Shown here piece after piece: positions 8,413 through 38,946 of a stretch of 49,812 bases of DNA. Positions within the stretch are counted from its first letter, which is position 1. Every line of letters starts with the position of its first letter. The notes under the pieces are model-generated. The model made no database searches. It saw only the letters and a list, made by a program, of their open reading frames with translations, and was not told the origin of the DNA. A program made the position numbers and the translations under genes. Source of the stretch: Mangrovicoccus sp. HB161399 (lineage in GTDB: Bacteria; Pseudomonadota; Alphaproteobacteria; Rhodobacterales; Rhodobacteraceae); contig NZ_JAATVU010000042.1 of NCBI RefSeq assembly GCF_013184745.1, forward strand, positions 1 to 49,812, read 5' to 3'.

Positions 8413-9393
8413 TCAGTGCAGGCGCGGCGCGTCCATGCCGTCGGCCGGACCGGGGAACAATCGGCCGGAGGCCGCGCAGCCGATGCCGCCGTCTTTGCCG
8501 CGGTGCAGGAACAGGGCATCCAGGCCGCGTGCGCTGGCCAGGGCCGCCCCCTTCCGGGCGCCGAGCACCATCAGCGCCGTTGCCCAGGCGTCCGCCTCGG
8601 CGCAGCTGCGGGCCAGCACGGTGACCGACGCCGGCGGCGCGGCCAGCGGCGCTCCGCGGCCCGGATCCATGGTATGCGACAGCTGCCGCCCCCGCACCTC
8701 GACCCAGTGCCGGTAGTCGCCCGAGGTGGCCACGGCAGCATCCTGGAGCGCTAGGATCGAATGCGGCGCGCGGCGCTCATGGTCGGGCGCCTCCACCGCG
8801 ATGGTCCAGGCCTGGCCGTCCGGCCGCAGGCCGAGCGCCCGCATCTCGCCGTCGATCCCGGCAAGCGCGCCGTCGATCCCGTGCGCGGCAAGCGTCTCTG
8901 CCAGCCGGTCCACGCCGTATCCCTTGGCGATGCCGTTCAGGTCGAGCGTCAGCGGCACGGATTTGCGGACGCGCCTTCCGTCGAGCTCCAGTGCCTCGTG
9001 GGCGGGCACGCGCGCGGCCGCCAGCGCGGCACGGATGCGCTCCGGCGAGGCCGCCGCGGGACCGAAGCCCCAGGCGGCCACCGCGTCGCCCATCGCGATG
9101 TCGAAGGCCCCGCCCGAGGCGCGGCCGATGGCGAGACCAAGGCGCAGCACCTCGGCCAGGCGTTCCGGCACGGGCAGCCATGCGCCCGCAGGCGCCGCAT
9201 TGAGGCGCATCAGGTCGCTGCCGGGCTTCCAGGCGGACATCTGCCCGTCCACCTCGTCGACCGCGGCCTGCAGCGCCGCGCGGAGCGCCGCCGGATCGAA
9301 GCCGGGCGGCGCGAAGAACAGCGCGGACCAGCGCGTGCCCATGGTCGGACCGTTCAGCGCGATGCGCTCCTGCTCAGTAGATGTCCTCGACAT
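8413..9393 (-). CDS. apbE: FAD:protein FMN transferase (ApbE family)
   Basis: The 326-residue protein has the ApbE signature order: the N-terminal GPTMGTRWSA strand, MSAWKPGSDLMRLNAAP (the substrate-binding region), DIAMGDAVAAWGFGP, LDLNGIAKGYGVDRLAETL, and the late SHTMDPGRGAPLAAPPASVTV with the metal-binding DAWATALMVLG. ApbE covalently attaches FMN to a Thr/Ser of extracytosolic proteins at a [DN]GxTGA[ST]-like motif. No clear lipobox or signal sequence is visible at this start, so export or an alternative location is open. It overlaps the PepSY/flavoreductase gene by 20 bp and ends the operon; the DUF2271 protein of the same operon carries a matching target motif (NGITGAS). Confidence 0.93.
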   Translation of the reverse strand: MSRTSTEQERIALNGPTMGTRWSALFFAPPGFDPAALRAALQAAVDEVDGQMSAWKPGSDLMRLNAAPAGAWLPVPERLAEVLRLGLAIGRASGGAFDIAMGDAVAAWGFGPAAASPERIRAALAAARVPAHEALELDGRRVRKSVPLTLDLNGIAKGYGVDRLAETLAAHGIDGALAGIDGEMRALGLRPDGQAWTIAVEAPDHERRAPHSILALQDAAVATSGDYRHWVEVRGRQLSHTMDPGRGAPLAAPPASVTVLARSCAEADAWATALMVLGARKGAALASARGLDALFLHRGKDGGIGCAASGRLFPGPADGMDAPRLH

Positions 9394-11581
9394 AGCGTCC
9401 CTCCGCCTTCAGCACCGCGGGCGAAAGCCCGGCGGGCGCGAGTATCTCGGCCAGCGCCTCGGCCACGCCCGCGGCCATGCCGCGCCCGCCGCAGACCATC
9501 ACCCGCGCGCCGCTGCGCAACAGATCCGCGACCTGCGCCGCATCTGCGCGCAGCGCGTCCTGCACGTAATGTGGCCGCGGTCCGCGCGAGACCGCCGTCG
9601 CCAGCCGCGCCATGCGGCCGTCCTCCTGCCAGCCCGGCAGCTCCTCGCCGTAGAGGAAGTCGCTGCCGGGATGGCGCATGCCGAAGAACAGGTGGACCGG
9701 CCGCCGCCGCCGGTTGTCGCGCACGATCCCCGCCAGCGGCCCGATGCCCGTCCCGGCGCCGATCAGGATTAGCGGCGCCCGGCCGCGGCCGGGCCGGAAG
9801 CCCGGGTTGCGGCGCAGGAAGGCGGCCACGGTGCCGCCGGGCTGCAGCGCGGTCAGCTGCCCGGAGGCCAGCCCGCCGGGATGGCGCTTCACCACGATCT
9901 CGATGAACCCGTCGCGGCGCGAGGAGGCCAGAGAATAGAACCGGGGCACGCTGCCGCCCTCGGGCAGGATGCCGATCAGGTCGCCTGCGCGGAACCGGGC
10001 GAATCCCGTCCCGGCGAGCCGCCGGCGCGGGGAAACGGGGGGCAGGGCGAAGCGCAGGATCGAGGTCGGCGCCTGCACCTCGGCGCCGTAGTCGCGGCGC
10101 GAGACCAGCGCCAGCGCCTGCGTCTCCGGCTGCGCCGGCCGGTGCGACAGCTCCAGCGCAATCCCCATCTCCTGTCCCAGCGCCCGGCCCCAGCGGGCGA
10201 AATCCTGCGGCGACTGCCGGTCGACCGTGTCCGGCGCCAGGAAGCTGCGCCATCCCTTGGCCCCGGCGGCCGCGGAGACGGTCCTTGCGAAGGCGCAGTA
10301 GCCGGGGAAGCTGCGGTCGCCAAAGCCGAGCACCGCCAGCGGTGCGGCGGGCGCCGCACCGGCGGCCTCCAGCTTGCCGAGGAAGCCGCGGGCCGACGCC
10401 GGGGCCGCGCCGTCGCCATAGGTCGCGGCCAGCACGATGATCCGCTCGGCACGGGCATAGCGGCCGGGCGCGAAGGCCGACATCGGCGCGGCATGCACGC
10501 TCTGTCCGGCGTCGGTCAATGCGGCGTGCAGGGTGGCGGCGAAGCCCCAGGTGCTGCCGCCCTCGCTGCCGACCAGCAGGATCGTCGCGGCGCGGTCCGC
10601 CGGGCGGTTGCCGCGGATGCGGGGACGTCCGCGCCGCCCGCCGCGCCAGACCAGCACGCCGGTCAGCGCCATCGCAGGCACGGCCAGCGCCGTCAGGCCC
10701 AGCACCGCGCCGAGCACCGCCGCGCCCTGTCCGGTATGGAGCATGTAGACCGTCTCCGAGGCGCGCTGCCATCCGGTCGGACCGGCCCAGGCAAGCAGCC
10801 TGCCGCTGCCCTGGTCGACATAGCCGGTGCCGCGGTCGGTCTTCAGCGTGAAGACATCCGCGGCGTCGTCCGGATAGGGGAAGGTCAGCTCGCGCAGCCT
10901 GGAAACCGGCGTCTCCGCCAGCAGGCCGATGCGTGCGGGATCGATGCCGGTGCCGCCGCTGACCTCGGCCGGAAAGGCCGGCAGGGTGCCGCCGTCGGGC
11001 AGGAGGCCGAAGGTGGAGGCGGTCATCCACAACGCGGTCGCGGAGGACAGGACGAGCCCCGCCACGGCAAGCCGGGCGATTTCGGCATGGAGGCGCCCGG
11101 CGAGCGGGCCGCGCAGCGGGGCGAACCACCGCCGCCAGCCGCCTGCGCGCCGCGCCGCCAGCGCCGCGCCCGACATCGCCAGCAGCAGCATCGCCGCTGC
11201 CCCGGCCGCCATGGCGATCCGGCCGCCATCGCCGAGGAACAGCGAGCGGTGCAGGTTGGAGAGCCAGCGCTCGGCCCCGCCCGGATCGGCGGGGCCCGCG
11301 CCCTGTCCGGTGGCCGGGTCGATCACGGCGGAGCCCGGCCCGTCCGGGCCGGTCCAGTAGGCCGTAATCCGCCCCGAAGGGGCGCGCCGGATCTGCTCGA
11401 GCCCCGGATGGGCCGCCTCGATGCGGCCCGCGAGGGCCGCGACCGTCAGTTCCGCCCAGGCCTGCGGCGCGGCAAGCCGTTCGGTAGCGGGGAAGACCGA
11501 GAGCGCTGCGCCGCTCAGGCTCAGGACGGTTACCAGCGCGAGGGCCAGAAGACCCGGCCAGCGGTGGAGTGCACGGATCAT
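9374..11581 (-). CDS. PepSY-flavodoxin-ferredoxin reductase fusion (transmembrane flavoreductase)
   Basis: The 735-residue protein starts with a PepSY-TM region (helices near 8-28, 122-146, 172-192 and 285-307; periplasmic PepSY stretches between them). A flavodoxin domain follows from ~335, with the FMN loop SEGGSTWGFA and ATYGDGAAP. The last part is a CysJ-like FAD/NADPH module: RFYSLASSR (FAD), GAGTGIGPLAGI (NADP ribose/pyrophosphate), and a C-terminal VCGGRGMAAGV segment. It should take electrons from cytosolic NADPH through FAD and FMN to the membrane and deliver them to the periplasmic side. Its neighbours are DUF2271 (12 bp upstream) and ApbE (overlapping downstream), the classic set for a flavinylated periplasmic acceptor. 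Often labelled 'sulfite reductase flavoprotein', which is unlikely here. Confidence 0.92.
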   Translation of the reverse strand: MIRALHRWPGLLALALVTVLSLSGAALSVFPATERLAAPQAWAELTVAALAGRIEAAHPGLEQIRRAPSGRITAYWTGPDGPGSAVIDPATGQGAGPADPGGAERWLSNLHRSLFLGDGGRIAMAAGAAAMLLLAMSGAALAARRAGGWRRWFAPLRGPLAGRLHAEIARLAVAGLVLSSATALWMTASTFGLLPDGGTLPAFPAEVSGGTGIDPARIGLLAETPVSRLRELTFPYPDDAADVFTLKTDRGTGYVDQGSGRLLAWAGPTGWQRASETVYMLHTGQGAAVLGAVLGLTALAVPAMALTGVLVWRGGRRGRPRIRGNRPADRAATILLVGSEGGSTWGFAATLHAALTDAGQSVHAAPMSAFAPGRYARAERIIVLAATYGDGAAPASARGFLGKLEAAGAAPAAPLAVLGFGDRSFPGYCAFARTVSAAAGAKGWRSFLAPDTVDRQSPQDFARWGRALGQEMGIALELSHRPAQPETQALALVSRRDYGAEVQAPTSILRFALPPVSPRRRLAGTGFARFRAGDLIGILPEGGSVPRFYSLASSRRDGFIEIVVKRHPGGLASGQLTALQPGGTVAAFLRRNPGFRPGRGRAPLILIGAGTGIGPLAGIVRDNRRRRPVHLFFGMRHPGSDFLYGEELPGWQEDGRMARLATAVSRGPRPHYVQDALRADAAQVADLLRSGARVMVCGGRGMAAGVAEALAEILAPAGLSPAVLKAEGRYVEDIY

Positions 11582-11593
11582 GGCCCGGTCTCC

Positions 11594-12064
11594 CTACATG
11601 TCGTAGGCGAAGCTGGCGATGTAGCGGCGCCCGCGCACAGGCGTTCCGGCGCCCTGGGCGGTCAGCGGAACGGCCAGCTCGCCGGGGCTGTCGCGCATGT
11701 CCTCGACGGCGGCATCGACATGCAGAGTGTAGCCCGCGTCGAACAGCGCGTCGGCAAGGTCGAAGGTGATCTGCAGCGTGCGGCCCGCGCCGACGCTGGC
11801 GCCGGTGATCCCGTTGATCTGGCGGGTGTCTCCGCCGGTGGCGCGCTCCCAGCCGGTCAGGTGCTGGTAGTATTTCGACTTGCCGCCGGCCATCCAGAGG
11901 CTGCCGGCATAGGCGCCGGAGGGATCGGTGACGTAGAAGGCGAGATACGCGCCGTCGCCGCCGTAGCTGTCGAGCTTGGTGGTCAGCGTCACCTGCCGCG
12001 CCATGGCAAGCCCGGGAAGCGTCAGCGCGGTGGTGAGCGCGAGCGCAGTCAGAAGCGGTTTCAT
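11594..12064 (-). CDS. Periplasmic DUF2271 protein with candidate flavinylation site
   Basis: The 156-residue product has a Sec signal peptide (MKPLLTALALTTALTLPGLAMA, cleavage near residue 22) and a DUF2271 domain (VTLTTKLDSYGGDGAYLAFYVTD, then ITFDLADALFDAGYTLHVDAAVEDMR). Residues 84-90, NGITGAS, match the ApbE target pattern [DN]GxTGA[ST]; Ser90 would carry FMN. It is encoded between an acidic exported protein (37 bp upstream) and the PepSY/flavoreductase (12 bp downstream), which ends in ApbE. Inference: the FMN-loaded protein is the periplasmic electron acceptor or carrier for the membrane reductase. The final acceptor (metal, heme, thiol) is unknown. Confidence 0.88.
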   Translation of the reverse strand: MKPLLTALALTTALTLPGLAMARQVTLTTKLDSYGGDGAYLAFYVTDPSGAYAGSLWMAGGKSKYYQHLTGWERATGGDTRQINGITGASVGAGRTLQITFDLADALFDAGYTLHVDAAVEDMRDSPGELAVPLTAQGAGTPVRGRRYIASFAYDM

Positions 12065-12101: not shown

Positions 12102-12458
12102 TCAGTTCACCTGGACCTGCGGCGGAGCGCCGTTGCCGAAGAGCCCGTTCGGCGGCGGGGCGACGGTGCCCGCAGGGGCCGGGCTGCGCGCGCCCCGGCT
12201 GCCGCCGTGGCCGTCCCCATCGTCGTCTTCGTCATCCTCGCCGCCGCCGTGCCGCCCGCCCATGGGGTAGCCGTGCCGGTCATCCTCGTCCTCGCCGCTT
12301 GCGAGGCGCAGCAGGTCCTGTTCGCCGCCGTCCCCGGCAAGCGCCACGGAGGGCGGCAGGCTGCGGCTGCCCGCGGACTGCGCCGCGCTCCAGGCCGGGA
12401 TGGCGGCGGCGGCCGCCAGGGCGGAGGCGGCGACGGCAAGCGTCAGGGTCTTTCTCAT
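12102..12458 (-). CDS. Exported Asp/Glu/His/Gly-rich small protein
   Basis: The 118-residue protein has a signal peptide (MRKTLTLAVAASALAAAAAI..., likely cleaved after AWSA) and then a low-complexity acidic segment with interspersed His and Gly (GEDEDDRHGYPMGGRHGGG, then DDEDDDGDGHGG). It ends in a Pro/Gly-rich tail. I know no named family. The composition suggests metal binding or a disordered periplasmic buffer, which is inference only. It is the first gene of the minus operon that continues to DUF2271, flavoreductase and ApbE. Its upstream region holds an inverted pair of CTGA-N7-CTGA sites, so it is the promoter-proximal member of the regulated unit. Confidence 0.7.
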   Translation of the reverse strand: MRKTLTLAVAASALAAAAAIPAWSAAQSAGSRSLPPSVALAGDGGEQDLLRLASGEDEDDRHGYPMGGRHGGGEDDEDDDGDGHGGSRGARSPAPAGTVAPPPNGLFGNGAPPQVQVN

Positions 12459-12504
12459 GGCTGGGTCTCTCCCGTGTCAGCTGGGGCCAATCTGGCGCGG
12501 CGAC

Positions 12505-12553
12505 CTGAGGGCTTCCTGACGGCCCGGCGCTTCCCGCTTCAGCTTGCCGTCAG
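12505..12553. promoter_or_regulatory. Predicted response-regulator operator pair 1
   Basis: Two tandem half-site elements face each other: CTGAGGGCTTCCTGACGG (12505-12522, plus) and CTGACGGCAAGCTGAAGC (12536-12553, minus). In both, CTGA repeats at an exact 11-bp step, the spacing used by OmpR/PhoB-family dimers. Start-to-start distance is 31 bp, identical to operator pair 2. It lies 47-95 bp upstream of the acidic protein/DUF2271/flavoreductase/ApbE operon. Confidence 0.65.
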
Positions 12554-12559
12554 GAAGCG

Positions 12560-12589
12560 ACAGGCCCCGCCTTGGGGGGCGGGGCCTGT
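12560..12589 (-). terminator. Hairpin after the PepSY gene
   Basis: A perfect 12-bp inverted repeat (ACAGGCCCCGCC and GGCGGGGCCTGT) with a 6-base loop lies 26 bp past the PepSY stop. No U-run follows, so it may be a pause/stability hairpin as much as a terminator. It separates the PepSY gene from operator pair 1. Confidence 0.5.
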
Positions 12590-12614
12590 CCGGAGCGCGG
12601 AGCTGGAGGGCCGG

Positions 12615-12938
12615 TCAGTCGTGCCCGTCGCCGTCATGGTCGCCGTCGCCGTCGCGCTGGCGGTGGCTGCCATCCTCGTATTCGAGATCGATCACCCGGA
12701 GCGTCGCGGGATCGACGGTGACCTCGATCCGGCGTCCTGCGGCATCGGTGCCGTCGATTTCGTAGCAGCCGTCGTCGATCTTGATGCGCCGCACGGCCCA
12801 GCCGTTGTCCTGCGCCAGCCCGGCGACGGCCTCGCGCGGCTGCCATTCGGCCATCGGCACGAGGCAGTCATCGTCCGCCAGCGCGGCTCCGGCCGGAAGG
12901 AGCGCGATAAACCCGAGAATTGTCAACGCCTTCTTCAT
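12615..12938 (-). CDS. Exported PepSY-domain protein (paralogue 1)
   Basis: I start at MKKALTILGFIALLPAGAALA, a clear signal peptide with GGGGAG upstream; the frame extends 12 codons further without support. The 107-residue product has one PepSY-like domain (EAVAGLAQDNGWAVRRIKIDDGCYEIDGTDAAGRRIEVTVDPATLRVIDLEYEDG split by two cysteines, C25 and C58) and a charged His/Asp/Gly tail (QRDGDGDHDGDGHD). The CYEI-G core is shared with the second PepSY protein at 16689. PepSY proteins are periplasmic inhibitors or sensors next to kinases; divergent pairing with the response regulator/kinase operon at 13083 suggests a sensory accessory or target of that system. Confidence 0.85.
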   Translation of the reverse strand: MKKALTILGFIALLPAGAALADDDCLVPMAEWQPREAVAGLAQDNGWAVRRIKIDDGCYEIDGTDAAGRRIEVTVDPATLRVIDLEYEDGSHRQRDGDGDHDGDGHD

Positions 12939-12989
12939 GGGCCAAACTCCCCGCTGCGGCCATGCCGATGCCATTCATGCGTCGCGAAG

Positions 12990-13038
12990 CTGACGGCAGC
13001 CTGAAGCAAGGGGCGGGCCGCCGTCAGGCTCGCGTCAG
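12990..13038. promoter_or_regulatory. Predicted response-regulator operator pair 2
   Basis: CTGACGGCAGCCTGAAGC (12990-13007, plus) and CTGACGCGAGCCTGACGG (13021-13038, minus) lie in the divergent gap between the PepSY gene and the response regulator gene. Each has the 11-bp CTGA step, and the pair has the same 31-bp geometry as pair 1. The position fits autoregulation of the two-component operon together with the PepSY gene. Confidence 0.68.
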
Positions 13039-13082
13039 CCCGGCCGGCCATTGGAGGATCAGCGGAGAAGGACGGAAACACA

Positions 13083-13742
13083 ATGCGCATCCTGCTGATC
13101 GAGGACGACACGGTTCTGGGCGCCGCGGTGCGCGACCAGATCGCGGCCGACGGCCAGACGGTGGATTGGGTGGCGCGGCTCGACACGGCGGGCGATGCGC
13201 TGCGCGCCGCCGCCTACGACCTGGTGCTGCTGGACCTGATGCTGCCGGACGGGCGCGGCATCGGCTTCCTGCGGGACCTGCGCGCGCGGGGCGACGTGAC
13301 GCCGGTGATCATCCTCACCGCGCTCGACCAGGTGTCGGACCGGATCGACGGGCTGAATGCCGGCGCCGACGACTACCTGGTGAAGCCCTTCGACCTGGCC
13401 GAGCTTTCGGCGCGGATCGGGTCCGTTGCCCGGCGCTATTCGGGCAACCCCAATCCGATCGTCACCCATGGACCGCTCGAGATCGACCTGGCTGCGCGCA
13501 GCATCTGCCGCGGCGGCGTTCCGGTGCAGCTGACCCAGCGCGAATGGGCGCTGTTCGAGGCCTTCCTGGCCCGTCCCGGCCAGCTGCTGTCGAAGGCGCA
13601 GCTGGAGCAGAAGCTCTATGCCTTCGATGCCGAGGTGGAGAGCAACACGATCGAGGTCCATGTCAGCCGCCTGCGCAAGAAGCTCGGCAGCGCCGTGATC
13701 GAGACCGAGCGCGGCATGGGCTACCGGCTGGGCCGGCCGTGA
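13083..13742 (+). CDS. OmpR-family response regulator (system 1)
   Basis: The 219-residue protein has a receiver domain with the acidic pocket E7-D8-D9, phosphorylation site D51 (LVLLDLMLPDG), T79 and K101 (DDYLVKPF), followed by an OmpR/PhoB winged helix (ends ETERGMGYRLGRP). It resembles the QseB/TctD/PmrA group. It overlaps the kinase gene by four bases (GTGA), implying translational coupling. Operator pair 2 lies 45-93 bp before its start. It is the most likely binder of the CTGA-N7-CTGA sites, although the second regulator at 17541 is an alternative. Confidence 0.93.
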   Translation: MRILLIEDDTVLGAAVRDQIAADGQTVDWVARLDTAGDALRAAAYDLVLLDLMLPDGRGIGFLRDLRARGDVTPVIILTALDQVSDRIDGLNAGADDYLVKPFDLAELSARIGSVARRYSGNPNPIVTHGPLEIDLAARSICRGGVPVQLTQREWALFEAFLARPGQLLSKAQLEQKLYAFDAEVESNTIEVHVSRLRKKLGSAVIETERGMGYRLGRP

Positions 13743-15088
13743 GGCTGCCGCGCAGCCTCCAGGGGCGGCTGGGCCTGTCGGTCGGGCTGGTGCTGTCGGT
13801 GCTCTGGCTGCTCGCGGCGACGGGCACGGCGCTGATCGTGCGGGCCGAGCTGGACGAGGTGTTCGACAGCGCGCTGAGGGGAACCGCCGAGCGCATCCTG
13901 CCGCTGGCGGTCACCGAGATCGTGGCGCGCGACGATGTCGGGGTCACCCAGAGGCTCGCGCCGATCCGCGCCCATGACGAGTTCTTCACCTATGTCGTGC
14001 GCGATGCCGAGGGCCGCATCCTGCTGCAGTCGCACAAGGCCGATCCGGCGGTGTTCCCGCCCTATGAAGGCAGGGGGTTCAGCCGCACGGACCGCTACCG
14101 GCTCTACAGCGACGCGGCGCTGCAGGGCACGGTCAGCATCACCGTCGCCGAGCCGCTGTCGCACCGCGCCGATGTCGCGCGCGAGATCCAGCTGGGCCTC
14201 GGCCTGCCGCTGCTGGTGGTTCTGCCGGTGGCGCTGGCGGCGATCATGGCGGCGGTGCGGCGCAGCCTGGCCTCGCTGCGCCGCTTCCGGACCAGCCTCG
14301 AGGCGCGCAATGCGCGCGATCTCTCCGCGGTGCCCACCGACGGGCTGCCTGCCGAGATCGCGCCGCTGGCGGCAACGCTGAACAGCCTGCTGGCAAGGCT
14401 GCGGGAGGCGTTCGAGGCGGAGCGGAGCTTCGCGGCCAATGCCGCGCACGAGCTGCGGACGCCGCTGGCCGGCGCGATCGCGCAGGCGCAGAGGCTGCGC
14501 TCGGAAACCCGGGACGCCGCTGCGGCAGGGCGGGCCGCCGAGATCGAGGCGACGCTGAAGCGCCTGACGCGGCTTTCGGAGCGGCTGATGCAGCTGGCGC
14601 GCGCCGAAGGCGGGCGGCTGCGGATGGACCGCAGCGCCGATCTGCGCACCGTTGCCAGGGTGATGGCGGAGGAGTTCGCGCGCCGAGAGGCGCCGGACCG
14701 GCTCCGGGTGCGCCTGCCGGAGATGCCGGTCATGTCGGATCTGGACCCGGACGCCTTCGGGATCGTGTTCCGCAACCTGGTGGAGAATGCCTTGCGGCAC
14801 GGCAGCGCCACCGCCCCGGTGGAAGTGGAGCTGTCGCCGCAGGGCATGCTGAGCGTCGCCAATGACGGCCCGCCGGTCCCGCGCGGCGCGCTGGACCGCC
14901 TGACGGCCCGCTTCGAGCGCGCGGACGCCGGAACCGACGGCAGCGGTCTCGGGCTGGCCATCGTAGCCGCCATTGCCGAACGGATCGGCGGCACGCTGTC
15001 CATCCGCTCGCCCTGTCCGGGCAGCAGCACCGGGTTCCGCGCGGAGCTGCAGCTGCCGGTGGACATGGCGGCGGGGGAGGGCGGCTGA
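13739..15088 (+). CDS. Sensor histidine kinase (system 1)
   Basis: I use the GTG at 13739, which overlaps the regulator's stop (GTGA). The 449-residue kinase has a first membrane helix (~14-36), a periplasmic sensor of about 115 residues (~37-150), a second helix (~152-173), a HAMP-like linker, the H-box FAANAAHELRTPLAG with phospho-His 237, an N-box (NLVENALRHG) and a G2-type GSGLGLAIVA motif. The layout matches QseC/TctE-like kinases, which sense periplasmic cues, often metals or organic acids. The nearby PepSY protein could modulate it. The stop lies 83 bp from the convergent DoxX gene. Confidence 0.92.
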   Translation: MRLPRSLQGRLGLSVGLVLSVLWLLAATGTALIVRAELDEVFDSALRGTAERILPLAVTEIVARDDVGVTQRLAPIRAHDEFFTYVVRDAEGRILLQSHKADPAVFPPYEGRGFSRTDRYRLYSDAALQGTVSITVAEPLSHRADVAREIQLGLGLPLLVVLPVALAAIMAAVRRSLASLRRFRTSLEARNARDLSAVPTDGLPAEIAPLAATLNSLLARLREAFEAERSFAANAAHELRTPLAGAIAQAQRLRSETRDAAAAGRAAEIEATLKRLTRLSERLMQLARAEGGRLRMDRSADLRTVARVMAEEFARREAPDRLRVRLPEMPVMSDLDPDAFGIVFRNLVENALRHGSATAPVEVELSPQGMLSVANDGPPVPRGALDRLTARFERADAGTDGSGLGLAIVAAIAERIGGTLSIRSPCPGSSTGFRAELQLPVDMAAGEGG

Positions 15089-15111
15089 CCGCGCGGCGTG
15101 CCGGGCCGGAG

Positions 15112-15153
15112 CCGGAACGCAAGCGGCCCCGGAGCCGCCTTGCGCGGTTCCGG
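15112..15153. terminator. Bidirectional hairpin between convergent genes
   Basis: Outer arms CCGGAAC (15112-15118) and GTTCCGG (15147-15153) enclose an inner GCGGC/GCCGC stem (15123-15127/15134-15138). It lies between the ends of the kinase gene and the convergent DoxX gene. No long T-run is present. Confidence 0.5.
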
Positions 15154-15171
15154 GGCAGGATGTGGGCCGGG

Positions 15172-15745
15172 CTAGAACTCCTTGGCGAGGTGCCGGTCAA
15201 CCGAGAAGTAGCCGCCGCCGAAGGCCGCGATCAGCGCTGCCCCGGCCGCCCAGAAGAGCGACGCGTAGATCGCCTTTTCCTGGATGCGGGCGCCGAAGGC
15301 CATGCCGCCGTCGCCCAGAAGGGCGGCCTGCGCACCCGGCGTCAGGAGGTCGGGATTGGCCGTCAGGTAGGCGAGGCCCTCGGCCGTGAGGAAGGGCTCG
15401 GGATAGGGGTGGATCATGTGGAACCACAGCGTGATCAGCAGCATCACCGCATTTGCCAGGGCGATCGGACGGGTCAGGAAGCCCACCGCGATCAGCATGC
15501 CGCCGAAGAACTGCATTGCCGCCAGCAGCGGCGACCAGAACCAGCCCGGATACATGCCGAGCGACTCGACGAAGCCCGACTGGGCGAGCGGCGCGACGAT
15601 CTTGGGCCAGCCGGCGACGACGAGGCTGAGCCCGACCGCCAGGCGGAAGCCGAGCCAGCCCACGGGCTCGGCGAATTTCGAATAGACCGGGGAGAGAAAC
15701 GGGATGACGAGCGCGGTCCCGCGGGGGAATGAAGATATCGGCCAT
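15172..15745 (-). CDS. DoxX-family membrane protein, frame break near the start
   Basis: The main frame encodes a DoxX protein with four hydrophobic segments (GFRLAVGLSLVVAGWPKIVA; LLAAMQFFGGMLIAVGFLT; ANAVMLLITLWFHM; LFWAAGAALIAAFGGGYF). DoxX proteins are membrane partners of redox systems. The natural start, an ATG at 15745 with AGGAG upstream, is in a different frame (MADIFIPP...) from the DoxX frame. A single extra G in the GGGGG run at 15723-15727 would explain it: removing one gives MADIFIPRGTALVIPFL and then the DoxX frame. Either a real inactivating or phase-variable slip, or a sequence error. No in-frame ATG lies close upstream in the DoxX frame. Confidence 0.75.
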
Positions 15746-15800
15746 TCTGCTGTCTCCTGTGAGATCGCTGGTTGTCGTGGCGGTACTCTAGGCCGGTTCT

Positions 15801-15820
15801 GCCGGTGCATAAATACCGGC
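15801..15820. promoter_or_regulatory. Inverted repeat upstream of DoxX
   Basis: GCCGGT (15801-15806) and ACCGGC (15815-15820) flank an AT-rich 8-base core (GCATAAAT), 56-75 bp before the DoxX start. A further GGCCGGT copy lies at 15791. It could be an operator or part of the promoter; no family match claimed. Confidence 0.3.
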
Positions 15821-15858
15821 CACCGCACCGGGACTGTGCGGAAACTGCTGGCAATCCA

Positions 15859-15872
15859 TTGATCCAAATCAT
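15859..15872 (-). promoter_or_regulatory. FNR/FnrL-like box
   Basis: TTGATCCAAATCAT matches the CRP/FNR-type consensus TTGAT-N4-ATCAA at 9 of 10 defined bases. It lies about 115 bp before the DoxX start, in a gap with no plus-strand gene, so DoxX (minus) is the natural target. Oxygen control would suit the redox neighbourhood. Confidence 0.5.
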
Positions 15873-16019
15873 TTTTAGGGGCCTTGAAAGGGCGGGCGCT
15901 CCTTCATTGCGCCGGCAGATGGGGCGCCCCCAATACCGGGGCGGCCCGTCCGGCGGGACGGGCGCGGGAGCCCGCCGCCGGGCGGGGATGCCCCGACGGG
16001 AAAGCCGGGGCAGGGCGCG

Positions 16020-16493
16020 CTATTCCGCGGCCTTCAGCTTGTCGAGCGCGGCCTTGTAGGACGCGTAGTGGTCGCCTTCGTCGGCGGCGATCTGGCGGAA
16101 CATGTCGGCGACCTTCATGTCGCCTGCGGCCGCTGCCTCATCCGCGAACCGGACGTACATGACGGTGTTCTCGTAATGCTCCCCGGCCATTGCGTCGAGC
16201 AGGTCGGCCTCGTTGCCCGCGACCAGGCCGAGCGCGTCGGCTTCGCGGTCGAAATGCTCGTTGGCCTCGACATTGGCGTTCTCTGCGAACAGCGCTGCCA
16301 GCTCGGGATTGTCGTTGCGGCGCGCGAATTCCGAATAGGCGAGGTATTTCAGGTTGGCGAAGGCCTCGCCATGCATGGCGGTCTGCAGGTTCTCGACGGT
16401 CTGCGGGTCCAGCGCGTTCCCGGCCAGGACCGGGCAGCCGGCCAGCGGGCTTGCGGCGATGGTGCCGAGCAGGAGGGTGCGGAGAGGTTTCAT
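16020..16493 (-). CDS. Exported ferritin-like (rubrerythrin-type) diiron protein
   Basis: I start at MKPLRTLLLGTIAASPLAGC, where a signal sequence begins; an upstream extension is possible (MEPDL at 16508). LAGC at 17-20 resembles a lipobox, so it may be a lipoprotein. The 157-residue protein is a four-helix bundle with paired metal-ligand positions: E43, E77 and H80 in the first pair, E105, E139 and H142 in the second (AGEHYENTVMYV; AADEGDHYASY). The rubredoxin domain of true rubrerythrins is missing. Export of a ferritin-like protein is unusual and suggests periplasmic peroxide or metal handling. It is divergent from the PepSY/cytochrome operon across operator pair 3. Confidence 0.82.
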   Translation of the reverse strand: MKPLRTLLLGTIAASPLAGCPVLAGNALDPQTVENLQTAMHGEAFANLKYLAYSEFARRNDNPELAALFAENANVEANEHFDREADALGLVAGNEADLLDAMAGEHYENTVMYVRFADEAAAAGDMKVADMFRQIAADEGDHYASYKAALDKLKAAE

Positions 16494-16558
16494 GAGGTCA
16501 GGCTCCATGTTGCGGACGGTGCCCTTTGGGGGCAGCACGGCCACCCTCGGACGCGGTG

Positions 16559-16617
16559 CTGACAATTGCCTGACGGCGCCCGGAAATTTTTCCGCGGCTC
16601 CGTCAGGTGGCTGTCAG
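16559..16617. promoter_or_regulatory. Predicted response-regulator operator pair 3
   Basis: CTGACAATTGCCTGACGG (16559-16576, plus) and CTGACAGCCACCTGACGG (16600-16617, minus) lie between the ferritin-like gene and the PepSY/cytochrome b561/two-component operon. Both have the exact 11-bp CTGA step. Start-to-start distance is 41 bp, one helical turn more than in pairs 1 and 2. The intervening AAATTTTT is the most AT-rich point of the gap. Confidence 0.68.
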
Positions 16618-16688
16618 CCTGCTGCGCCAGTGTGGCGGCGTGCCCTGCTTCCGGGGCCGTCCTCCAGACCGAGAAAGGACATCCTGAC

Positions 16689-16973
16689 ATGACCCGCATG
16701 AAAGCCGCGCTGGCCGCCCTCGTTCCCTGCCTGTGCCTCGCCGCCGGGGCGGCCGCCGCCAGCCCGACCTGCACTGCCGAGCCGCAATCCGCCTGGCTGA
16801 CAGAGGCGCAGATGAAGCAGAAGATCGCCGAGATGGGCTATGGCGAGATCAAGGTGTTCCGGACCTCGACCACCGGCTGCTACGAGATCTACGGCTACAA
16901 CAAGGACGGGGTGAAGGCCGAAGTCTATTTCAACCCGGTCACCGGCGAGATTGTCGAAGAGAACCTGAACTGA
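16689..16973 (+). CDS. Exported PepSY-domain protein (paralogue 2)
   Basis: Start chosen at ATG 16689 (MTRMKAALAALVPCLCLAAGAAAA, a signal peptide). The mature 70-residue part is a single PepSY repeat with two cysteines (C28, C64) and the core TGCYEIYGYNKDGVKAEVYFNPVTGEIVEE, closely parallel to CYEIDG...RRIEVTVDPATLRVI in paralogue 1. Cysteine spacing is similar in both, suggesting a periplasmic disulfide. It is followed after two bases by the cytochrome b561 gene and heads a four-gene operon with the second two-component system. Confidence 0.85.
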   Translation: MTRMKAALAALVPCLCLAAGAAAASPTCTAEPQSAWLTEAQMKQKIAEMGYGEIKVFRTSTTGCYEIYGYNKDGVKAEVYFNPVTGEIVEENLN

Positions 16974-16975
16974 CG

Positions 16976-17560
16976 ATGGCGGATCTCGGCTGGGGTACCG
17001 CCCGCAACGGGCGGATCCGGGTGTGGGACCCGTTCGTTCGGGTCTTCCACTGGAGCGTCGTGGCCGCCGTCATCCTGAACCAGGCGGTGCTCGATCCCGG
17101 CAAGACCGCGCACCGCTATGTCGGCTATGCCGTTGCAGGCCTGCTGGCGCTGCGGCTGGTCTGGGGCTTCGCCGGGACGCGGCATGCGCGGTTCCGCGAT
17201 TTCGCCGCGCCGCCGGGCCGGGTCCTGCGGCACCTGGCGGCCGCGCTGCGCGGGCGCGATCCGCGCTATGTCGGGCACAACCCGGCGGGCGGCGCGATGA
17301 TGCTGGCGCTGATGGCGCTGCTGGCGGCGATCTGCCTGACCGGATGGATGCAGAAGCTCGACATGTTCTGGGGGGTGATCTGGGTGGAGGATCTCCACGC
17401 GATCCTGGCCGATCTGCTGGTCTGGATGGCTCTGCTGCATGCGGCGGCGGCTGTCCTGGAGAGCTTCCGCCACCGCGAGAACCTGATCTGGTCGATGGTC
17501 GACGGCCGCAAGCGGGCGGAGCGGCCCGGGGAGGCCGGGCATGCGGGTCCTGCTGGTTGA
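16976..17560 (+). CDS. Cytochrome b561-type membrane diheme protein
   Basis: The 194-residue protein has four membrane helices and the usual heme-ligand histidines: FHWS in helix 1, HRYVGYA before helix 2, GHNPAGGAMM at helix 3 and DLHAILADLLVWMALLHAAAA in helices 3-4. Such proteins move electrons between the quinol pool or a periplasmic donor and a soluble partner, and often sit with PepSY proteins and cytochromes c. The gene starts two bases after the PepSY stop and its end overlaps the response regulator by 20 bp, so PepSY, cytochrome b, regulator and kinase form one transcript. Confidence 0.9.
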   Translation: MADLGWGTARNGRIRVWDPFVRVFHWSVVAAVILNQAVLDPGKTAHRYVGYAVAGLLALRLVWGFAGTRHARFRDFAAPPGRVLRHLAAALRGRDPRYVGHNPAGGAMMLALMALLAAICLTGWMQKLDMFWGVIWVEDLHAILADLLVWMALLHAAAAVLESFRHRENLIWSMVDGRKRAERPGEAGHAGPAG

Positions 17561-18221
17561 GGACAGCGCGAGGCTGTCCGAACTGATCGTCGCCGGCCTT
17601 TCGGCGGCGGGCTTCGCCGCCGATCCTGCCGCGACGCTGGCAGCGGCGGAGGCGGCCGCCGAGGCGGTGCCCTATGACCTGATCCTGCTCGATCTGGGCC
17701 TGCCAGACGGCGACGGGGCCGCCTTCATGCGGCGGCTCCGCCGGGGCGGCTGCCTCACGCCGGTGCTGATGGTCACCGCGCGGTCGGGGCTCGACGACAA
17801 GGTGCGGGGGCTGGACGCGGGTGCCGACGACTACCTGGTCAAGCCGTTCGAGCTGCGCGAGCTGCTGGCGCGCTGCCGGGCGGTGCTGCGCCGTCCCGCC
17901 GCCTGTCTCGGTCCGGTGCTGAGCTTCGGCGATATCGAGCTGGACTGCGCGGCGCGCCGCGTGGCGGTGGCCGGGCAGCCGGTGCACCTGCCGCCGCGCG
18001 AGACCGACCTGCTGGAACTGCTCCTGCGCCGGGGCGGCCAGGTGGTGGGCAAGCCCGCGATCGAGCAGGCGCTCTATGCCCTGGCGTCCGAGGTGACGCC
18101 GAACGCGCTGGAGGCCGTCGTCTCCCGCCTGCGCCGCCACCTGGCGCAGGCCGGTTCGGCTGCCGGGCTGCACACGGTGCGCGGCATCGGCTACATGCTG
18201 GCCGCGGCGGAGCGGCCGTGA
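17541..18221 (+). CDS. OmpR-family response regulator (system 2)
   Basis: The 226-residue protein has a receiver domain (E7-D8, phospho-site D51 in ILLDLGLPDG, then DDYLVKPF) and a C-terminal OmpR winged helix (VRGIGYMLAAAERP). It starts inside the end of the cytochrome b561 gene (20-bp overlap) and overlaps the kinase by four bases. It is paralogous to the regulator at 13083. Either regulator could bind the shared CTGA-N7-CTGA sites; cross-regulation is plausible. Confidence 0.92.
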   Translation: MRVLLVEDSARLSELIVAGLSAAGFAADPAATLAAAEAAAEAVPYDLILLDLGLPDGDGAAFMRRLRRGGCLTPVLMVTARSGLDDKVRGLDAGADDYLVKPFELRELLARCRAVLRRPAACLGPVLSFGDIELDCAARRVAVAGQPVHLPPRETDLLELLLRRGGQVVGKPAIEQALYALASEVTPNALEAVVSRLRRHLAQAGSAAGLHTVRGIGYMLAAAERP

Positions 18222-19615
18222 CCGGCGCGGCCGCACGGCGGGCCCGTCCGCTCCGGGTGCGGATGACCATCCGGCTGGGGCTGGTGGCGCTGCTGTTCTT
18301 CTCGATCCAGCTGCTCAGCGTCCTGTGGATCTACGTCCGCAACCCGAACGCGCTGGACGAGCTGCTGGTCACGGCCGAGGCCGGGCGCATCGCGGCGGCG
18401 CTGGTTGCCGCTCCGGAGGGGCCCGAGCTTGCCGATCCGCGGGCGGTGCCGGAGCCCTTCGCCGGCGGCACCACCCGCGCCTTCCTGATCCATGACTCGG
18501 TCGGCAACATCGTCCTTCGCCATGACGACGGCACGCTGCGCGTCGCCGACGAGCCGCCCGCCTCCTTCGTGGTGATCCGCACCCAGCGGGAGCAGCACGG
18601 CGCGCGGTTCCTGCTGTCGGGCACGCGGCGGATCGCGCTGGCGGGCCAGCCGCTCTGGATCGGGCTGGCGATCTCCGGCGAGGGGTTCCGCCCCTTCGTT
18701 CCGGTCATCGCCGACGAGATACGGGTCCATGTCATCTTTCCGCTGGTGCTGCTCTCGGGGCTCTACCTGCTGTTCAATTTCGGTGCGGTGCGCAGCGCGC
18801 TGAAGCCGTTGGAGGCGGTCATGGCCACGGTCGACCGCATCGACCCGGCGCAGGTCGGCCAGCGCATCGCGCCGCCCGCCCGGCCGGTGCGCGAGGTCGA
18901 GGCGCTGGTCGCCTCGGTCAACCGCATGCTGGCGCGGATCGAGCAGTCGGTGCGCGCGCTGCAGGATTTCGCGGCCGACGCGGCGCACGAGCTGCGCACG
19001 CCGCTGTCGATCGCCATGCTCAATGCCGGGGCGCTGCCGCCCGGACCCGCGCGCGAGGCCTTGCTGTACGATCTTCAGGCGATGCGGAGGCTGATCAGCC
19101 AGATGCTGGACATGTCGCATGCCGACGCTCTGGAGATCCCGGCCGGGGCGGAGGCGGACCTGGCGGCGATCGCGGCCGGGGTGGTGGCGGATCTGGCGCC
19201 GCTTGCGGTCGCGCGCGGGCGCAGCATCGCCTTCCGGCCCGCGCCCGGTCCGCTGCCTGTCCGCGGCCATGCGGATGCCATCGGCCGCGCCCTGCGGAAT
19301 CTCGTGGAGAATGCGCTCCAGCATGGCCCTCCAGGCAGCGAGGTCGCCGTGTCCTGCGGTCCGGGCGCGCAGATCTGCGTGCGCGATTCCGGCCCGGGCA
19401 TTCCGCCGGAGCGGCGCGCCGAGGTGCTGCAGCGCCACCGGCGGCTCGCCCCGGGCGATGGCGGCGGGGCGGGCCTCGGCCTCGCGATCGCCCGGACGAT
19501 CATGGCCGCGCATCGCGGACGGATCGAAATCGGCGATGCCCCGGGCGGCGGCGCGGCTGTCCGGCTGGACTTCCGCCGAGGCGGTTCTGCCGACGGCGGC
19601 GAAGGCAGCGCCTGA
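18218..19615 (+). CDS. Sensor histidine kinase (system 2)
   Basis: GTG start at 18218 overlapping the regulator stop. The 465-residue kinase has a first membrane helix (~20-40), a periplasmic sensor (~41-170), a second helix (~170-190), HAMP-like linker, H-box FAADAAHELRTPLSI with phospho-His 257, N-box (NLVENALQHG), and G-boxes (RDSGPGIP; GGGAGLGLAIARTI). Similar architecture to the first kinase but with a different sensor sequence, so a different signal is likely. It ends the operon that began at the second PepSY gene. Confidence 0.92.
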   Translation: MTGAAARRARPLRVRMTIRLGLVALLFFSIQLLSVLWIYVRNPNALDELLVTAEAGRIAAALVAAPEGPELADPRAVPEPFAGGTTRAFLIHDSVGNIVLRHDDGTLRVADEPPASFVVIRTQREQHGARFLLSGTRRIALAGQPLWIGLAISGEGFRPFVPVIADEIRVHVIFPLVLLSGLYLLFNFGAVRSALKPLEAVMATVDRIDPAQVGQRIAPPARPVREVEALVASVNRMLARIEQSVRALQDFAADAAHELRTPLSIAMLNAGALPPGPAREALLYDLQAMRRLISQMLDMSHADALEIPAGAEADLAAIAAGVVADLAPLAVARGRSIAFRPAPGPLPVRGHADAIGRALRNLVENALQHGPPGSEVAVSCGPGAQICVRDSGPGIPPERRAEVLQRHRRLAPGDGGGAGLGLAIARTIMAAHRGRIEIGDAPGGGAAVRLDFRRGGSADGGEGSA

Positions 19616-36753: not shown

Positions 36754-38946
36754 TCAGCCCGCGCTCAGGTCATGGCCCGAGAGCGGCAGGGTGCGGAACC
36801 GCCGTCCGGTCAGCGCGGCGGCGGCATTGACCACCGCCGGGCCGACGCCGGGCAGGCCGGGCTCGCCGATCCCGCCCATCTTCGCGCCGCTCTCGACGAT
36901 CGCGACCTTCACCTCGGGCATCTGGTCCGGGCGCAGGATGTCGTAGCTGTCGAAGTTCCGCGCCACCGGCGCGCCATCCTCGTAGACATGTTCCTCGACC
37001 AGCGTCTGCGACAGGCCGAGCGCCACGGCGGATTGCACCTGTGCCTCGATGATCGCCGGGTTGACGATGCTGCCCGGATCGATTGCCACCCAGATGCGGT
37101 GGACGCGGATCGATCCGCCCTCGACCGACACCTCGGCCATGGTCGCGACTTCCGAGCCGAAGGGCGAGGCCATCGCGACGCCGCGGGCGAGGGTGGTGCC
37201 GTCCTCCGCCTGATAGGGGCCGCGCTGCCAGCCGCCCGAGAGCGTCTCCACCTCGGCCAGCAGGGTGGCATGGCGCGGCGAGCCCGCGACCAGCTCCTTG
37301 CGCAGCTCGTAGGGATCGCGCCCCGCAGCCTCGGCCAGCTCGTCGAGGAAGCTCTCGTAGAAATAGTCGTGCATCGAGTGCCCGACAGCGCGCCAGTAGC
37401 CGATCACCGCCGGGTTGGCGGCATAGACATGGCCGATCCGGCGGTTCGGGATCGCGTAGGGCTTGCCCGAGATCCCCTCATGCGCCGAGCTGTCCTCGCC
37501 CGCCGGCGCCTTGTACCAGCGTCCCGTCGGCCCTTCGCCCAGCACTTCGGCCGAGAGCGCCAGCGTGCCGTCCGCCAGCACCGCGCCGCGGAACCGCGCC
37601 GTGCCCATCGGGCGCACGGCGTCGCGCAGGAATTCCTCCTCGCGGGTCCAGACCAGCTTCACCGGGCGTCCGGTGGCCTTCGCCAGGCGGATCGCCTGCG
37701 GGAACGGGTTGGCGGTGCGGTAGAGGAAATGCCGCCCGAAGAAGCCGCCAAGCATCTGCGAATGGATCGTCACCTTGTCCGGCGCGATCCCGGCAGTCTC
37801 GGCGGCAGCGCCGAGGAACATCTCCGGCGCCTGGTTCGGCAGCCACAGGTCCAGCGTGCCATCCGCGTTGAAGCGCGCGGTGGCGGAGGGCGGCTCCAGC
37901 TGGCCATGGGCCAGGAAGGGCGCACCATAGACCGCCTCGATCACCGTCTCCGCGCCCGCGAGCGCCGCCTCGGCATCGCCCTCGGCCTCGACCTGCAGCC
38001 CCGGACCTTCAAGGGCGAGAAGCTGCTCGCGATAGCCCGCGCTGGAGAAATCCGCCGGAAGCGGCCATTCGGCTTCGGTTTCCTGCCACTCGACCTCTGC
38101 CGCCTCGACGGCACGGCGGGCCTGCCAGAAGCGGTCGGCGACCACCGCCACGGCCCCGTCCAGAAGATGCACCGAATGCACGCCGCGCATCGCTTCGATC
38201 TCGGCGAGGTTGGTCACGGAGGCCGGGCCCAGCCCCAGACGCGGGGCGTGCTGCACGGCGGCCGAGAGCATGCCCTCGACCTCGACATCGATGGCGTATT
38301 TCGCCTGGCCGGTGGACTTGTCGCGGATGTCGAGCCGCTTCAGCCCGGCACGGATCCAGCGGAACTCCGACGGGTCGCGCAAGCTGACCTCGGCCGGAAC
38401 GGCAAGCTCCATCGCTGCCCCGGACAGATCGCCGTAGCCGATCTCGCGGCTGGACGCCTCATGGACGACCACGCCCGGACGGGTGGACAGCTCGGAGACC
38501 GGCACGCCCAGCTGCTCGGCGGCGGCCTCGACCAGCATCGCGCGGCCCGTGGCACCGAGACGCCGCATCAGGTCGTAGCTGGTGCGCACCGACGAGCTGC
38601 CGCCGGTGAAGCGGAAGCCGCCCATCACGTCGAAGGGCGCGCCGGGCGGGGCGGGGACGACCTCGAAGACGGCAGGGTCGAGGTCCAGCTCCTCGCCGAC
38701 GATCTGGGTCAGGGCGGTGTAGATGCCCTGGCCGCCCTCGATGAAGGGGCTCTGCAGCACCGCGGTGCCGTCGGGACGGATCTGAAGGAAGAGCGGCACC
38801 GGCGGACCTGCCTCGGGGGCGGCCTCCTGCCCGCGGGCCGGGCGCAGCGGCAGGGCGGTGGCCAGCACCAGCCCGGCAGTGCCCGAGAGGAAGCCGCGGC
38901 GCGACAGGTTCAGCGGACGGGATTTCGGGAAGCTCATCTCTGTCAT
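36754..38946 (-). CDS. Molybdopterin-binding large subunit, IorB-like aldehyde/xanthine oxidase family
   Basis: The 730-residue protein has a Tat signal (LNLSRRGFLSGTAGLVLATAL) and two MoCoBD regions: GGQGIYTALTQIVGEELDLDP early, and GGFFGRHFLYRTANPFPQAIRLAKATGRPVKLVWTREEEF and VGHSMHDYFYESFLDELAEAAGRDPYELR later. The late Glu region reads GGIGEPGLPGVGPAVVNA, containing the catalytic Glu of the xanthine oxidase family. It would hydroxylate an aldehyde or N-heterocycle in the periplasm. The partner [2Fe-2S] subunit lies three bases upstream. No FAD subunit is nearby, as in isoquinoline 1-oxidoreductase, whose electrons go to cytochromes. Confidence 0.92.
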   Translation of the reverse strand: MTEMSFPKSRPLNLSRRGFLSGTAGLVLATALPLRPARGQEAAPEAGPPVPLFLQIRPDGTAVLQSPFIEGGQGIYTALTQIVGEELDLDPAVFEVVPAPPGAPFDVMGGFRFTGGSSSVRTSYDLMRRLGATGRAMLVEAAAEQLGVPVSELSTRPGVVVHEASSREIGYGDLSGAAMELAVPAEVSLRDPSEFRWIRAGLKRLDIRDKSTGQAKYAIDVEVEGMLSAAVQHAPRLGLGPASVTNLAEIEAMRGVHSVHLLDGAVAVVADRFWQARRAVEAAEVEWQETEAEWPLPADFSSAGYREQLLALEGPGLQVEAEGDAEAALAGAETVIEAVYGAPFLAHGQLEPPSATARFNADGTLDLWLPNQAPEMFLGAAAETAGIAPDKVTIHSQMLGGFFGRHFLYRTANPFPQAIRLAKATGRPVKLVWTREEEFLRDAVRPMGTARFRGAVLADGTLALSAEVLGEGPTGRWYKAPAGEDSSAHEGISGKPYAIPNRRIGHVYAANPAVIGYWRAVGHSMHDYFYESFLDELAEAAGRDPYELRKELVAGSPRHATLLAEVETLSGGWQRGPYQAEDGTTLARGVAMASPFGSEVATMAEVSVEGGSIRVHRIWVAIDPGSIVNPAIIEAQVQSAVALGLSQTLVEEHVYEDGAPVARNFDSYDILRPDQMPEVKVAIVESGAKMGGIGEPGLPGVGPAVVNAAAALTGRRFRTLPLSGHDLSAG

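Follow-up and report, generated by a model that had tools for sequence, protein, structure and literature searches.

Inverted pairs of GTCAG-N6-GTCAG elements as predicted operators of two PepSY-linked, PmrA/QseB-like two-component systems in Mangrovicoccus sp. HB161399

Genes and paired elements of the locus

The stretch analysed here, positions 1-49,812 of contig NZ_JAATVU010000042.1 from Mangrovicoccus sp. HB161399 (genome of 7.18 Mb), is called the window throughout and carries two two-component systems lying among genes for PepSY-domain and redox proteins. From left to right, it shows the genes for an ApbE-like protein, a PepSY_TM-flavodoxin-reductase, a DUF2271 protein, and an acidic protein (all on the minus strand), PepSY1 (minus), the response regulator RR1 with the sensor kinase HK1 (plus), DoxX and a ferritin-like protein (minus), and finally PepSY2, cytochrome b561, the response regulator RR2, and the sensor kinase HK2 (plus). 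Six CTGA-N7-CTGA elements in the gaps between these genes form three facing pairs (Table 1), with distances between the element centres of 34 base pairs (bp) in pairs 1 and 2 and 44 bp in pair 3. Read outward, each element is a PmrA/BqsR-like direct repeat, GTCAG-N6-GTCAG, with a step of 11 bp. Pair 3 has CTGAC in all four half-sites, and the right-hand element of pair 1 faces the 3' end of PepSY1, with no -10-like box at the usual distance. A preliminary description of this DNA had listed six elements, taken to be 18 bp long, with CTGA at an 11-bp step in facing pairs; all of them are where it placed them, and its gene positions hold.

Both regulators exceed the Pfam cutoffs for the receiver and the Trans_reg_C winged-helix domain and thus belong to the OmpR/PhoB family; the earlier proposal that the elements are dimer sites of this family is supported at the sequence level. 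Their best NCBIfam match is PmrA (scores of 205.8 and 195.4, under the curated cutoff of 330) and, with QseB scores of 191.7 and 166.2, under the cutoff of 345, neither can be called a PmrA or a QseB proper. The operon behind pair 1 displays the features of a PepSY-like flavinylation cluster, namely a PepSY_TM reductase, a DUF2271 protein with a TGAS motif, and ApbE, the last below its NCBIfam cutoff.

Table 1. Paired elements, -10-like boxes, and genes at the locus (positions of the window)
Feature	Position	Strand or elements	Basis or context
Pair 1	12505..12553, 49 bp	12505-12519 (+), 12539-12553 (-)	Promoter of the leftward acidic protein/DUF2271/PepSY_TM-flavoreductase/ApbE operon
Pair 2	12990..13038, 49 bp	12990-13004 (+), 13024-13038 (-)	Divergent promoter: PepSY1 left, RR1-HK1 right
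Pair 3	16559..16617, 59 bp	16559-16573 (+), 16603-16617 (-)	Divergent: ferritin-like gene left, PepSY2-cytochrome b561-RR2-HK2 right
-10-like CAGATT, pair-1 operon	12489..12494	-	10 bp after the proximal element of pair 1
-10-like CATGAA, PepSY1	12974..12979	-	A at +12
-10-like CATTGG, RR1 (weak match)	13049..13054	+	A at +12
-10-like GAGGGT, ferritin-like gene (weak)	16543..16548	-	Pair 3 side
-10-like CAGTGT, PepSY2	16628..16633	+	Pair 3 side
ApbE-like, FAD:protein FMN transferase	8413..9393	-	NCBIfam score 187.6, under cutoff 498
PepSY_TM + flavodoxin + NAD-binding membrane reductase	9374..11581	-	Domain profile matches
DUF2271 protein with TGAS motif	11594..12064	-	Translation and domain match
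Acidic Asp/Glu-rich protein, first gene of the pair-1 operon	12102..12458	-	Translation; similar genes at many loci
PepSY1 (PepSY_2 domain)	12615..12938	-	Domain match
RR1 response regulator, receiver + Trans_reg_C, recognition helix SNTIEVHVSRLR	13083..13742	+	Domain matches, alignment
HK1 sensor kinase	13739..15088	+	Best NCBIfam match QseC, under its cutoff
Ferritin-like/rubrerythrin protein	16020..16493	-	Domain match
PepSY2 (PepSY_2 domain)	16689..16973	+	Domain match
Cytochrome b561	16976..17560	+	Domain match
RR2 response regulator, recognition helix PNALEAVVSRLR	17541..18221	+	Domain matches
HK2 sensor kinase	18218..19615	+	Domain matches

Conservation of the pairs

The window holds seven CTGA-N7-CTGA words, with 0.79 expected, and none of 100 shuffles reached seven; the seventh word, at 36754, is unpaired and lies at the 3' end of an open frame. 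Single words are common in the genome, pairs are not: the word occurs 113 times in the 7.18 Mb (reversed-pattern control, 26), while a facing pair with a gap of 5-40 bp is found at these three sites only (control, 0). The pairs are thus confined to the three promoters to which they had been assigned.

Among 295 genomes of the family, scanned for pairs with a gap of 5-35 bp, 76 carry a pair and a single one carries the reversed control. RR1 orthologues (E up to 1e-70) were found in 62 genomes, 58 of which have a pair, as opposed to 18 of the 233 without RR1 (Fisher 3e-40; this P value, like the other given below, is too small since the sequences are related). At 67 RR1 loci, the window's own included, an exact pair stands directly 5' of RR1 in 48 (36 of 49 bp, 12 of 50 bp), and 14 further loci show one mismatch at 49 or 50 bp, mostly CTGA changed to CTTA; one mismatch at 65 bp (L212) and two at 49 bp (L189) were seen once each. 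None of 1005 control stretches from the same loci had a pair of 49 or 50 bp with two mismatches or fewer. The length is rigid, 98 of the 105 distinct pairs at RR1 loci measuring 49 or 50 bp and the others 58, 59, 60 (three), 63, and 67 bp. Named genomes with RR1 orthologues of 71-88% identity revealed the pair before RR1 in 10 of 11 cases (nine of 49 or 50 bp, one, L042, of 67 bp); in the eleventh, L044, it lies before the DUF2271 operon instead. GTCAG is the usual half-site, TTCAG is found sometimes, and TAAG occurs in single half-sites at a minority of loci. The preliminary description would have been refuted by frequent random pairs elsewhere or by elements that are not conserved in orthologous promoters; it withstands both checks, as shown by the genome scan, these counts, and the promoter layout below. 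A chance origin of the pairs is ruled out by the shuffles, the genome and family scans, and the control windows.

RR1 homologues are frequent on plasmids: a search at E up to 1e-60 gave 144 plasmid records, with 92 typed as conjugative, 38 of them from Pseudosulfitobacter and largely alike. In one family genome (G138), RR1 is present in three copies, each on a separate contig. In G177, which has RR1 pairs too, a further 49-bp pair (L011:1501-1549) lies apart from the searched genes and may be chance.

The simple assignment of every pair in the family to RR1 was rejected on account of the 18 pair-bearing genomes (of 76) without RR1. One pair was inspected in each of 12 of these 18 (all except G004, G012, G062, G067, G179, and G184). 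In six genomes (L221, L222, L224-L227), facing pairs of 39 bp lie beside a PepSY gene, confirmed by Pfam at all six loci, with a regulator and a kinase. At the four loci scanned on the other side as well, L221, L224, and L227 have a second PepSY_2 gene there, and L226 has a BOF gene. The position of the 39-bp pairs at PepSY-regulator-kinase operons suggests that operators of this family are more widespread in PepSY-linked two-component systems and that these pairs are a third subfamily of the same operator. Five other inspected pairs, of 37, 37, 40, 41, and 42 bp, look like chance; three of them lie within reading frames and the other two between frames. An orphan 49-bp pair without a clear target gene lies at L228:1848-1896 in G131, which lacks RR1. 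In G130, where RR1 pairs are also present, a sensor kinase gene has a 39-bp pair (L232:5033-5071) at its 3' end, next to a gene that by eye encodes an RTX-like repeat protein.

Promoter layout and recognition helix

At the RR1 loci, an A stands 12 bp beyond the element on 134 of 142 gene-facing sides versus 6 of 40 sides facing the 3' end of a gene (Fisher 4e-23), and on 20 of 26 sides without gene assignment. This A is probably part of a -10 box. If it is the second base of that box, the near element would cover about -37 to -23 and the far element would be centred near -64. In the window, the composite of element and -10-like box is present at the five gene-facing elements and at 36754, and is missing at the element facing the 3' end of PepSY1. 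As far as can be judged from sequence, the repeat overlaps the -35 position at a fixed distance from the -10 box, as in PmrA/BqsR-type promoters. The far element of pair 1 is strongly conserved despite facing a gene tail (tail consensus GCTTCAGCTTGCCGTCAGGA), so it would work without a promoter of its own.

Residues 1-217 of RR1 align without gaps to PmrA/BasR, the best solved relatives (E about 1e-42), and PmrA numbering is therefore valid for RR1. According to PMC4660055, N188 and N196 of PmrA read bases, and T187, V192, and H195 take part in hydrophobic base contacts. RR1 has S187, N188, V192, H193, S195, and R196; RR2, aligned by motif, has P, N, A, V, S, and R at these positions. Two changes in the helix of RR1 go along with changed half-sites: R196H in one clade (L206, L209, L213) and H193F in another (L217, L218) are both found with CTGAA in all four half-sites, while the other RR1 loci compared have CTGAC in both outer half-sites, except for one side each in L191, L195, and L038. 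In Methylocapsa, the operon of a more distant regulator that also has F at 193 is preceded by TTCAG-N6-TTCAG. Because half-site and helix change together, RR1 very probably reads the RR1-type pairs, and hence pairs 1 and 2 of the window.

The RR2 cluster and pair 3

With the ferritin-like gene as a marker, the family search located the RR2 cluster in 1 of 295 genomes, the window's own. Of 385 class genomes, three gave ferritin-like matches: that of the window and, with weak matches, those of L115 and L116. Further matches were present in 2 of 347 and 1 of 146 genomes of other sets, each of these two counts including the Bradyrhizobium genome itself, and on seven plasmids, of which H6 (Methylocapsa) has another gene order. 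The carriers beyond the family are a few Hyphomicrobiales and Sphingomonas plasmids or genomes, and a search with RR2 at 1e-55 found no plasmid. The cluster is separate and rare, and apparently imported.

Seven RR2-type divergent promoters were compared, the window included and H6 and the plasmids H4 and H7 left out; the Sphingomonas loci L119 and L235 among them are near relatives. Both elements are present in all seven, with CTGAC in 28 of 28 half-sites and A at +12 on 13 of 14 sides, and the pairs measure 59, 94, 67, 81, 82, 65, and 68 bp. The longer third pair, described earlier as extended by one helical turn, is real in the window, but a single extra turn is not the rule across this range of 59-94 bp. 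The two operator classes differ, RR1 pairs being nearly always of 49 or 50 bp with inner half-sites that are often CTGAA, and RR2 pairs being variable in length with CTGAC only. The Bradyrhizobium genome has an RR2 cluster with its own CTGAC elements and a best RR1 match of 47%; both systems are present on Xanthobacter pXAUT01 and in genome G1021. For Methylovirgula and Sphingomonas, the RR1 search covered the plasmid alone, and the Methylovirgula RR2 was left out of the helix comparison. Based on the seven promoters and on Bradyrhizobium, which has no RR1 match above 47%, RR2 very likely recognises this half-site on its own, with pair 3 as its site.

On the Sphingomonas plasmids L119 (2720-2894) and L235 (1228-1393), a single outward GTCAG-N6-GTCAG, followed by CA after 10 bp, precedes a VIT gene next to RR2. 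Unpaired sites may thus also be functional.

Discussion

With a probability of roughly three in four, the elements are binding sites of the adjacent PmrA/QseB-like regulators, RR1 at pairs 1 and 2 and RR2 at pair 3, in autoregulated redox/metal circuits. One regulator dimer would bind each gene-directed GTCAG-N6-GTCAG repeat, leaving two sites back to back. Since the element lies over the -35 region, with a -10-like box beginning 10 bp further on, the bound dimer most likely activates RNA polymerase. The rigid spacing of 49/50 bp, together with a second element that is kept even without a promoter, suggests that the two dimers at pairs 1 and 2 probably act together, the distal one near -64; at pair 3, the two elements would serve two divergent promoters under RR2, with free spacing. 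Both circuits would be autoregulatory, their targets being PepSY/flavin/cytochrome redox genes and the ferritin-like protein, and their purpose plausibly defence against excess iron or a similar metal.

Several observations weigh against this reading, apart from the relatedness that deflates the P values. No pair 5' of RR1 was found at 3 of the 67 loci (L210, L214, L216), and among distant RR1 homologues of 48-61% identity (L045-L062), it is present only in L046 and L050 and missing in 16 of 18. Xanthobacter pXAUT01 has one intact element remaining before RR1, and in a Rhizobium plasmid one half-site has turned into TAAG. The covariation of helix and half-site comprises two clades and one distant case only, the Methylocapsa element having its A at +13 and not at +12. 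Several of the -10-like boxes are poor (CATTGG, GAGGGT) and, since a spacing of 34 bp falls between whole helical turns, the two dimers may lie on different faces of the DNA.

The preliminary description had gone further and predicted one regulon with two regulators feeding into the same sites. All pairs do share the half-site and the 11-bp step, both helices have N and R at PmrA positions 188 and 196, Xanthobacter pXAUT01 and G1021 likewise hold both regulators, and cross-talk between QseBC and PmrAB is reported in the literature (PMC10729948, PMC5677524). Each cluster, however, retains its own sites in the absence of the other, as seen from the frequencies of RR1 and the ferritin-like marker in the family (62 and 1 of 295 genomes) and from Bradyrhizobium; moreover, spacing and inner half-sites are class-specific, and the two helices disagree at positions 187, 192, and 193 (S, V, H in RR1; P, A, V in RR2). 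That RR1 and RR2 each bind all three pairs in this cell is therefore unlikely, and the merged regulon is the weak part of a description whose finding itself is real: the half-site is shared, and each cluster most likely forms a circuit of its own. Some cross-binding seems quite possible, given N and R at the two base-reading Asn positions of PmrA in both regulators.

Repression, with the elements over the -35 region blocking RNA polymerase, would agree with the overlap of the proximal element and the -35 position if the conserved A belongs to the -10 box. It is improbable in view of a promoter consensus without any -35 hexamer besides the element itself and a fixed element-to--10 distance that fits activation. 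For BqsR, PMC4682146 ascribes a dual role to the pentamer that overlaps -35 and describes pentamers 3 and 4 as crucial to strong expression. Hardly credible is a different regulator that reads the pairs and has the neighbouring two-component systems as mere targets, considering the tight co-occurrence of pairs with RR1 and the half-sites that covary with its recognition helix. A bolder form of the preferred reading, in which the adjacent regulators bind their own pairs, is put forward tentatively and is itself rather doubtful: RR1 would need an obligate two-dimer inverted operator of fixed 49/50 bp, with head-to-tail dimers facing apart and together driving one or two promoters as a cooperative unit, the layout would recur in at least three PepSY-linked subfamilies (39; 49/50; 59-94 bp), and two of these, united by horizontal transfer, may read each other's sites.

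As for the signal, VIT genes lie near both kinds of cluster (one annotated as DUF125, which we take to be the same family), and heavy-metal P-type ATPases near two clusters; neither was found among the scanned proteins of the window, a part of its open frames. PepSY-like clusters bearing VIT1, 167 of them, are recorded and tied to iron in PMC8238504, and a Caulobacter table (PMC3751524) has DUF2271 and ApbE genes among the iron- or Fur-responsive ones. From these neighbours and records, iron is our best guess, made from gene content, and another metal may be involved instead.

The operator can be described as a variant of the PmrA/BqsR box that is rich in GC and arranged as an inverted pair. 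The pho box of PhoB, an 11-bp direct repeat shortly upstream of the -10 box that takes the place of -35, is similar in repeat and position, and differs in half-site, regulator subfamily, and the lack of a fixed inverted partner. The BqsR box of Pseudomonas aeruginosa, TTAAG-N6-TTAAG, for which PMC4682146 gives 432 operators with at most 2 mutations, likewise has two pentamers with a 6-bp gap, one over -35, and further upstream pentamers add strength; here, however, the half-site is GTCAG, the second dimer site is inverted at a fixed spacing rather than tandem, and there are three paired sites. BqsS is reported to be an Fe2+ sensor (PMC12666569). In the PmrA/BasR-DNA complexes (4S04/4S05, 8JO2; PMC4660055), tandem half-sites are bound by a head-to-tail pair of DNA-binding domains, which resembles the binding proposed here, although H195-N196 of PmrA correspond to S-R in RR1 and RR2. 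The pair-1 operon resembles the ApbE/DUF2271 flavinylation clusters of PMC8238504 in its PepSY_TM reductase with an NAD-binding domain, its DUF2271 protein with [S/T]GA[S/T], and ApbE; section 11 of that paper gives Fur as the repressor in two species and contains no dedicated two-component operator. Among the papers listed in the literature searches, which covered few subscription papers, none was seen to describe an operator of this PepSY-linked class.

The pairs provide a precise operator and promoter model for PepSY-linked two-component systems, of which the RR1 kind is carried by many plasmids, and they would tie a flavin-based PepSY/DUF2271/ApbE redox module to a dedicated regulator. RR1 offers a natural case of covariation between recognition helix and operator in a PmrA-like regulator, and the two paralogous circuits in one cell would be a clean setting for the question of cross-talk.

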